Shown in pieces: positions 18,056 to 19,458 of a stretch of 64,000 bases of DNA. Source of the DNA: Halanaerobiaceae bacterium. Its GTDB lineage: Bacteria; Bacillota; Halanaerobiia; Halanaerobiales; Halarsenatibacteraceae. Under the pieces are notes generated by a model. That model was not told the DNA's origin and ran no database searches. It saw only the letters and a program-made list of their open reading frames with translations. Where the stretch lies: positions 1 through 64,000 of the forward strand of contig PWDW01000135.1 in assembly GCA_003553225.1 (NCBI GenBank), read 5' to 3'. The position numbers were made by a program, and so were the translations under genes. How positions within the stretch are numbered: the stretch's first letter is position 1; each line of letters opens with the position of its first letter.

Positions 18056-18084
18056 TTGTTGCTGCCCCTGCAATCTGTTATAAT
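18056..18084 (+). promoter_or_regulatory. Promoter of tyrS
   Basis: TTGTTG (18056-18061), 17-bp spacer, perfect TATAAT (18079-18084). Transcription would start near 18091, giving a leader of about 138 nt. Confidence 0.7.
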
Positions 18085-18107
18085 AAACAAAATAAAATAA
18101 TGGTACA

Positions 18108-18228
18108 GGGAGGTGTCAGCCACCCGGTTAATTTTCATTATAACTTATATCAAATCAGATGTGCAAGTTTATAGTTATAGTAAGGAAAAATTACTAATTT
18201 ACTGCTGCTATTTTAAAAAACCGGGTGT
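18108..18228 (+). promoter_or_regulatory. Structured tyrS leader: distant Shine-Dalgarno and junction fold
   Basis: A strong Shine-Dalgarno GGGAGGTG (18108-18115) lies 113 nt before the coding start. Between them a perfect 9-bp stem P1 (CACCCGGTT 18121-18129 with AACCGGGTG 18219-18227) encloses P2 (TATAACT/AGTTATA, 18139-18145 and 18173-18179) and P3 (AGTAA/TTACT, 18179-18183 and 18191-18195, sharing one base with P2). If P1 forms, the Shine-Dalgarno is separated from ATT 18229 by only six unpaired bases (TCAGC+T). The alternative hairpin GGTG/CACC (18112-18115 with 18121-18124) would hide the Shine-Dalgarno. I do not recognise the fold as a known riboswitch class, and no T-box is present. 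Confidence 0.5.
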
Positions 18229-19458
18229 ATTAATAAGGAAATTGAAGAACAGATAAAATACTTGACCAGAGGAATAAGTGACATTATTTCAGAAGAAGGT
18301 TTGAAGGAAAAACTTCAAAAGTCAGAAAAAACAGGAGAGCCCCTTAAAGTTAAGCTGGGGCTGGATCCCAGTGCCCCGGATATTCATCTGGGACATACAG
18401 TAGTGTTAAGAAAATTAAAGCAGTTTCAGGATCTGGGGCATGAGGTTTATTTGATTATTGGTGATTTTACCGGCAGAATTGGAGATCCAACCGGTAAATC
18501 GGAGACCAGACAGCAGTTAACCGAAGAAGAAGTAAAGAAAAATGCCCGAACCTATCGGGAACAGTTTATTAGGATACTGGATTCGGAGAAAACAAATCTG
18601 GTCTATAATAGTGAGTGGCTGGGCAAAATGGACTTTGCGGAGGTCATTGAACTTTCTTCAAAGTATACGGTGGCTAGAATGCTGGAAAGAGAAGATTTTA
18701 ACCAGCGCTATAACAGCGGCCAGTCCATAAGTATTCATGAGTTTTTCTATCCTCTGATGCAGGGATATGATTCTGTAGCCATAGAAGCTGATGTTGAACT
18801 GGGAGGTACGGATCAGAGATTTAATCTGCTGGTGGGACGAAATCTCCAGCGTGAGTACGGCCAGGATCCTCAGGTTATAGTAATGACTCCTCTTCTGGAA
18901 GGTCTGGATGGAGTGAACAAAATGAGCAAAAGTCTGGATAACTATATTGGTATAACCGAGGCTCCTGAAGAGATGTACGGTAAGGTAATGTCTATTTCCG
19001 ATGATTTGATAGTACGCTATTTTGAACTTTTAACCGAAGTACCCCTGGAAGAGATTTCAGAGATAGAAAGCTCCCTTAAGAATGGAGCTGCCAACCCCAT
19101 GAAACATAAAAAGAAGCTGGCCCGGGAGATTGTCAGTGAATATCACGATGCTAAGAGTGCAAAGCAGGCTGAAGAGGAATTTAATCGGGTTTTTTCAGAA
19201 GGTGAGCTGCCGGAAGATATGCCGGAAATAGAAATTGGGAGTGAGGATCTAGAAGATGGGAAAATGTGGATAGTACATCTAATATCAGCAACCGGACTTG
19301 TTGACAGCAACAGTGAGGCCCGGCGTATGATAAAACAGGGTGCTGTAAGAATTAATGAAGAAAAACATAAAAAAATTAATCAGGACATAAAAGTTGAGGA
19401 TGATATGGTTATCCAGATTGGTAAAAGAAGGTATGCCCGGATAAATCTTGTTCAATAA
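18229..19458 (+). CDS. tyrS: Tyrosyl-tRNA synthetase, probable ATT start
   Basis: About 409 residues, class I synthetase of the longer TyrRS type. Signature HLGHT (HIGH-like) in [23 protein letters not shown]-type motif [12 protein letters not shown], and a C-terminal S4 RNA-binding domain (about 345-405, [20 protein letters not shown]). Start problem: the frame is open only from 18217 and contains no ATG or GTG before the catalytic domain. The first TTG (18262) has no ribosome site and would remove the usual N-terminal lead. Using ATT 18229 gives [14 protein letters not shown], the length homologs have. See the leader entry for how initiation might occur. Confidence 0.92.

Follow-up and report, generated by a model that had tools for sequence, protein, structure and literature searches.

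The closest described counterparts of the leader reported here are found in a phage. In T4 genes 38 and 25 the Shine-Dalgarno sequence (SD) lies beyond working range of the start codon, and a structure between the two elements shortens the distance from 22 to 5 nt and from 27 to 11 nt, respectively (PMC3014915). These sites have been proven by experiment, in that destabilization of the structure leads to less initiation, and close relatives retain the structure (PMC3014915). Among the papers that we found, working structured spacers between SD and start were shown for T4 phage genes; no report of split sites on bacterial chromosomes was found in open-licence full texts, which is weak evidence of novelty.

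Here we describe a leader of similar layout in front of the tyrS gene of a Halanaerobiaceae bacterium. The window, i.e. the whole stretch of DNA that was analysed, comprises 64,000 nucleotides of contig PWDW01000135.1. As in the T4 genes, the SD of tyrS lies beyond working range, an intervening structure (hairpin P1) is predicted to shorten the distance, and the structure is conserved in relatives, in this case among Halanaerobiales. It differs from the T4 cases in that the genes are bacterial and chromosomal, the arrangement is order-wide with strong covariation, two gene families and some sporadic genes carry it, apical inserts reach 89 nt, the start is probably an ATT, and the site is known from sequence alone. 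We consider that the tyrS leader is probably a split translation initiation site, where the SD and the start codon would meet across the base of a hairpin. A first-pass annotation of the window had suggested a new class of leader; this was overstated, as the layout matches that of T4 genes 38 and 25 (PMC3014915).

The tyrS leader of the window

The features of the locus are as follows.

18056..18084, + strand: promoter, TTGTTG - 17 nt - TATAAT, shared with the tyrS leaders of relatives
18108..18115, + strand: SD, GGGAGGTG, with the core GGAGGTG at 18109-18115
18121..18129, + strand: 5' arm of P1, CACCCGGTT, fully complementary to 18219-18227, covarying and with a core pair probability of 0.98
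18130..18218, + strand: apical domain of 89 nt with two predicted hairpins, at ~18142-18169 and ~18171-18211
18219..18227, + strand: 3' arm of P1, AACCGGGTG, assigned on the same basis as the 5' arm (complementarity, pairing, covariation)
18229..18231, + strand: proposed ATT start of tyrS, in frame, separated from the SD by 6 unpaired nt when P1 is folded
18229..19458, + strand: tyrS coding sequence counted from the proposed ATT, TIGR00234 (tyrS) at 412 bits, 74% identity to the tyrS of relative G008
18262..18264, + strand: first in-frame TTG, an unlikely start, with no SD before it and 7 upstream residues conserved as protein

The strong SD and the perfect 9-bp stem (18121-18129 with 18219-18227) had been noticed at first reading and were confirmed, as was the spacing that results from them: the linear distance of 113 nt between the SD and ATT 18229 is predicted to fall to 6 unpaired nt (5 + 1) when P1 is folded. 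At least nine Watson-Crick pairs at the P1 position were obtained in 0.07% of spacer shuffles. The total folding energy of the leader is ordinary compared with shuffled sequence (z -0.21), and the fold alone would therefore not have persuaded us. Both of the inner hairpins described in the first-pass annotation occur in the minimum-energy fold; the one at ~18142-18169 is well supported, but that at ~18171-18211 reached a probability of only ~0.44. In the predicted fold, 18101-18106 can also pair with part of the SD.

The 89-nt apical domain has no counterpart in the tyrS leaders of relatives, where loops measure 3-17 nt, and represents a loop enlargement specific to this lineage. Searches of the window leader against Rfam, at gathering and at permissive thresholds, gave no match. 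That the leader is a repeated or mobile insert was ruled out, there being no second copy in the genome. A 16-nt word in the P1 loop, TGCTGCTATTTTAAAA (window 18203-18218), recurs at 22 other places in the own genome (G000); with one mismatch allowed it has 23 occurrences there vs 0 for the reversed control, and some copies are coding (AAILKK) and others seemingly intergenic.

Upstream of the SD, 22 of the order's 26 leaders have the promoter TTGT(T)A-17-TATAAT, and the gap between promoter and SD is 17-26 nt in families f2 and f3 and in the window. From the end of the -10 box to the SD core we counted 24 nt in the window and 17-18 nt in most f3 genomes. As a side observation, the promoter is strikingly uniform across the order (TTGTTA - 17 nt ending TCTGT - TATAAT).

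T-box leaders (RF00230) serve the same kind of gene, and the tyrS of G039 (f9), which is without the hairpin, carries one. By contrast, the tyrS leader of the window lacks a match to RF00230, as do the other members of the order that were tested. Nor is there a long leader upstream of the SD: the conserved promoter lies so close to it in the window that no room for a T-box is left, and the absence of a T-box stated at first reading was correct. Some f7 genomes (G016, G025, G013; L048-L050) have only a different TyrRS, with ~34-36% identity, in front of which a stretch resembling a T-box antiterminator, GGTGGTACCACG, was read by eye. This suggests that the synthetase may have been replaced there together with its control.

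Conservation in Halanaerobiales

Of 38 genomes of the order, 29 were found to contain a tyrS of the window type, 27 of them with a complete 5' end. In 26 of these 27 leaders SD, hairpin and start follow each other in this order. Their linear distances range from 27 to 113 nt (27-39 nt in the 25 relatives), which is beyond working range, and the predicted residual distances, with the hairpin folded, are within range in all 26 (5-12 nt, mean 9.4). The SD always precedes the hairpin and reads GGAGGTG in 25 leaders and GGGGGGT in one. A 16S 3' end with CACCTCC was found in the relative G014; the own assembly yielded no 16S 3' end. Behind the hairpin the start codon is ATG in 23 leaders, TTG in two and ATT in the window. 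An ordinary ATG with its own ribosome site, which would have spoken against the first-pass reading, is thus mostly not what the relatives have, since their ATG stands behind the hairpin and not beside the SD.

The sole exception among the 27 is G011, with an ordinary site (SD, 6 nt, TTG), and the hairpin is accordingly not indispensable. Outside the order, families f8 and f11 have the SD 6-9 nt from the start, without a hairpin. Spacer shuffles yielded p values of 0.0003-0.05 per genome, and 11 representatives, mostly one per genus, gave a combined value of 2e-18, which should be taken as a guide and not as exact, being based on 3000 mononucleotide shuffles and on related genomes.

In genus g2 (L031, L034, L036, L037) the tyrS product is extended at its N-terminus by several tens of residues, and the SD-hairpin-ATG unit precedes this extension, having moved along with the start codon. 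In many tyrS leaders a CTG follows the SD at 5-6 nt. A conserved leader peptide after the SD was rejected from reading the leaders, as the reading frames bear no relation to one another and some end after two codons.

The distal SD could also be understood as a 30S site of the STAB-SD kind that shields the 5' end of the mRNA. The hairpin would then be an additional obstacle to nucleases, and initiation would proceed by way of the 3' arm or without an SD. STAB-SD elements exist in Gram-positive bacteria and, as in cryIIIA (PMC3997798), a strong SD lies close to the predicted mRNA 5' end in the window and in f3; moreover, a weak SD-like word is found close to the start in 15 of the 26 leaders. 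However, the STAB-SD of cryIIIA needs no associated start codon (PMC3997798), whereas the geometry of tyrS relative to its start is nearly constant, and a residual spacing of 5-12 nt, seen in 26 of 26, would not need holding. In addition, f6 and most f1 leaders are without a proximal SD, and a second gene with the same layout, described below, follows other genes instead of standing at a 5' end. We regard such a stabilizing role as very unlikely.

It is scarcely credible, finally, that the f3 hairpin and the TTTTTT after it form a transcription terminator controlling tyrS. Most leaders of genus g11 do have a stem followed by T6 directly before the ATG, but no T run follows the hairpin in the window, in f1, f2, f6 or f7, or in G017, and stems of 6-8 bp are weak.

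Covariation of the P1 arms

With the stem core as anchor for the arms, changes on both sides were seen in 7 of 9 pairs, and one position takes all four Watson-Crick pairs. The covariation score was 0.558, vs 0.246 for shuffled and at most 0.16 for slid arms, in an alignment that was anchored on and fitted to the stem, unaided MAFFT aligning the arms only within families. In a test free of cross-family alignment, a genome's own tyrS arms showed 94% Watson-Crick pairing vs 38% for arms swapped between genomes, with the reservation that own arms were chosen for pairing and their percentage is inflated, so that the per-genome shuffles, searched identically, make a fairer control. In genus g11, for which the unaided alignment suffices, the second pair has changed from A-U to G-C in G023 and G028. 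Here the helix is kept while the SD-like AGGTG of the 3' arm is lost, which argues that the helix is preserved and not a proximal SD. The compensatory arm changes that the first-pass annotation had told us to look for in relatives were thus found, and the conserved position of P1 together with the covariation of its arms across the order supports the claim that P1 brings the SD into reach.

Several lines of evidence favor the split initiation site: the geometry itself, its presence in 26 of 27 leaders, the near-constant residual distance despite variable linear spacing, the covariation of the arms, and the ordinary sites in other orders. In the proposed mechanism a strong SD near the mRNA 5' end would be set apart from the start codon by P1, and P1 would fold out of the way. 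The 30S subunit would then pair with the SD and reach the start codon across the base of P1, over 6 unpaired nt in the window. From the geometry we infer that ribosomes use the site in this manner, and the arrangement is most likely one of mainly passive spacing and not a switch.

A switch had nevertheless been proposed at first reading, whereby the 5' arm of P1 has two possible partners, the SD in the off state and the 3' arm in the on state. In a regulated version of this reading the effector would be tyrosine, tRNA-Tyr, TyrRS, salt or temperature, and the large apical domain of the window would act as the sensor. Aminoacyl-tRNA synthetase genes are often regulated, and in the window CACC can indeed pair with GGTG of the SD, as had been pointed out; a 4-bp complementarity between the SD and the 5' arm occurs in 10 of the 26 leaders vs 1.8 expected from shuffled arms. 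However, it is absent from the other 16, including all of f6 and all of f1 except the window, so that the alternative pairing that would sequester the SD is not conserved. In the window the off state is predicted to be ~5 kcal/mol worse than P1, and there is no conserved loop, ligand site or ligand domain. A temperature series, in which P1 pairing rose with heat, was judged unreliable and was not used. The on-switch thus fared poorly and seems unlikely to us, and regulation of tyrS by way of the split site is possible but unsupported. It is likewise doubtful that a factor or ligand acting on P1 would couple tyrS translation to the supply of tyrosine, tRNA or TyrRS in place of a T-box, with the second gene controlled in the same way.

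The start codon of tyrS

The stop codon TAA 18214-18216 bounds the tyrS frame upstream. No ATG, GTG or TTG occurs in the frame until TTG 18262, which no SD precedes, in agreement with what was first read from the window. The seven residues before this TTG (IEEQIKY) match the N-termini of relatives so well that only 6 of 20000 same-base shuffles did better. Their conservation as protein places the start upstream of 18262, where translation of tyrS very probably begins, and TTG 18262 is, as had been suspected, an unlikely start. ATT 18229 is the sole in-frame near-cognate codon at a workable distance and, judged from this context, it is fairly likely to be the codon used.

Window tyrS may be likened to infC of E. 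coli, which has an AUU start after a strong, extended SD. For infC, cvfC1 and pcnB no hairpin between SD and start is reported, whereas window tyrS has one and its AUU is putative. In S. aureus, AUU and AUA starts with strong SDs give about one tenth of the AUG output in poor medium, and pcnB of E. coli is a further case of an AUU start (PMC13009471). Both S. aureus cvfC1 and pcnB resemble window tyrS in that the AUU follows a strong, extended SD (PMC13009471).

Alternatively, ATT might stand in place of a true ATG through an error of assembly or sequencing, or some other codon might be used, the hairpin-split site being otherwise unchanged. The own assembly is a draft genome of 269 contigs, relatives start tyrS with ATG or TTG, ATT starts are rare, and a general tyrS profile did not tell the candidate N-termini apart. 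On the other hand, there is no direct sign of error, and AUU starts behind strong SDs have precedents (PMC13009471). We hold this explanation to be possible but not favored; an assembly error at ATT, if present, would leave the hairpin finding untouched. In annotation, window tyrS would be given a wrong start.

The same layout before other genes

Other sites with SD, hairpin and start were sought by pattern search within the order. An unnamed protein gene of ~210 residues (CPxCGRLE and further Cys pairs) has SD, hairpin and ATG in 36 of 37 genomes (set L319-L355; own copy G000:C248:75416-76009, L349), which provides independent support for the split site. The linear distance is 27-67 nt and the residual distance 6-14 nt; own arms pair at 89% vs 30% when swapped, and 2 of the 36 (L333, L355) are weak (shuffle p >0.1). 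The protein had no match in Pfam or NCBIfam. In G019 the gene adjoins fructose-bisphosphate aldolase- and Rho-like genes, and in G002 P1 carries a longer insert, parallel to that of window tyrS.

An order-wide, covarying site before an essential gene and a second family would demonstrate that sites of this kind are maintained in cells over long evolutionary times. Hairpin-split sites escape gene finders and spacing rules, and through their natural variants (residual distances of 5-14 nt, loops of 3-89 nt) the geometric limits of 30S initiation can be put directly to the test.

On a genome scale (1.2 Mb of G014, 0.72 Mb of the own genome) ordinary spacing prevails, and hairpin-split sites were few and only modestly above shuffles. 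From this rarity it follows that the arrangement is gene-specific and not a general mode of initiation. Pattern hits at mreC were rejected as split sites, being ordinary TTG starts. Sporadic occurrences of the layout were seen before gatA in the own genome (L289, G000:C79), G024 (L308) and G010 (L178), before an ilvE-like gene with a TTG start, before argF-like and DUF2971 genes of the own genome, and before an M20-like peptidase gene in G014 near 1,080,581; further loci listed for sporadic sites are L170 (G000:C117), L256:1189 and L273:1709-2575.
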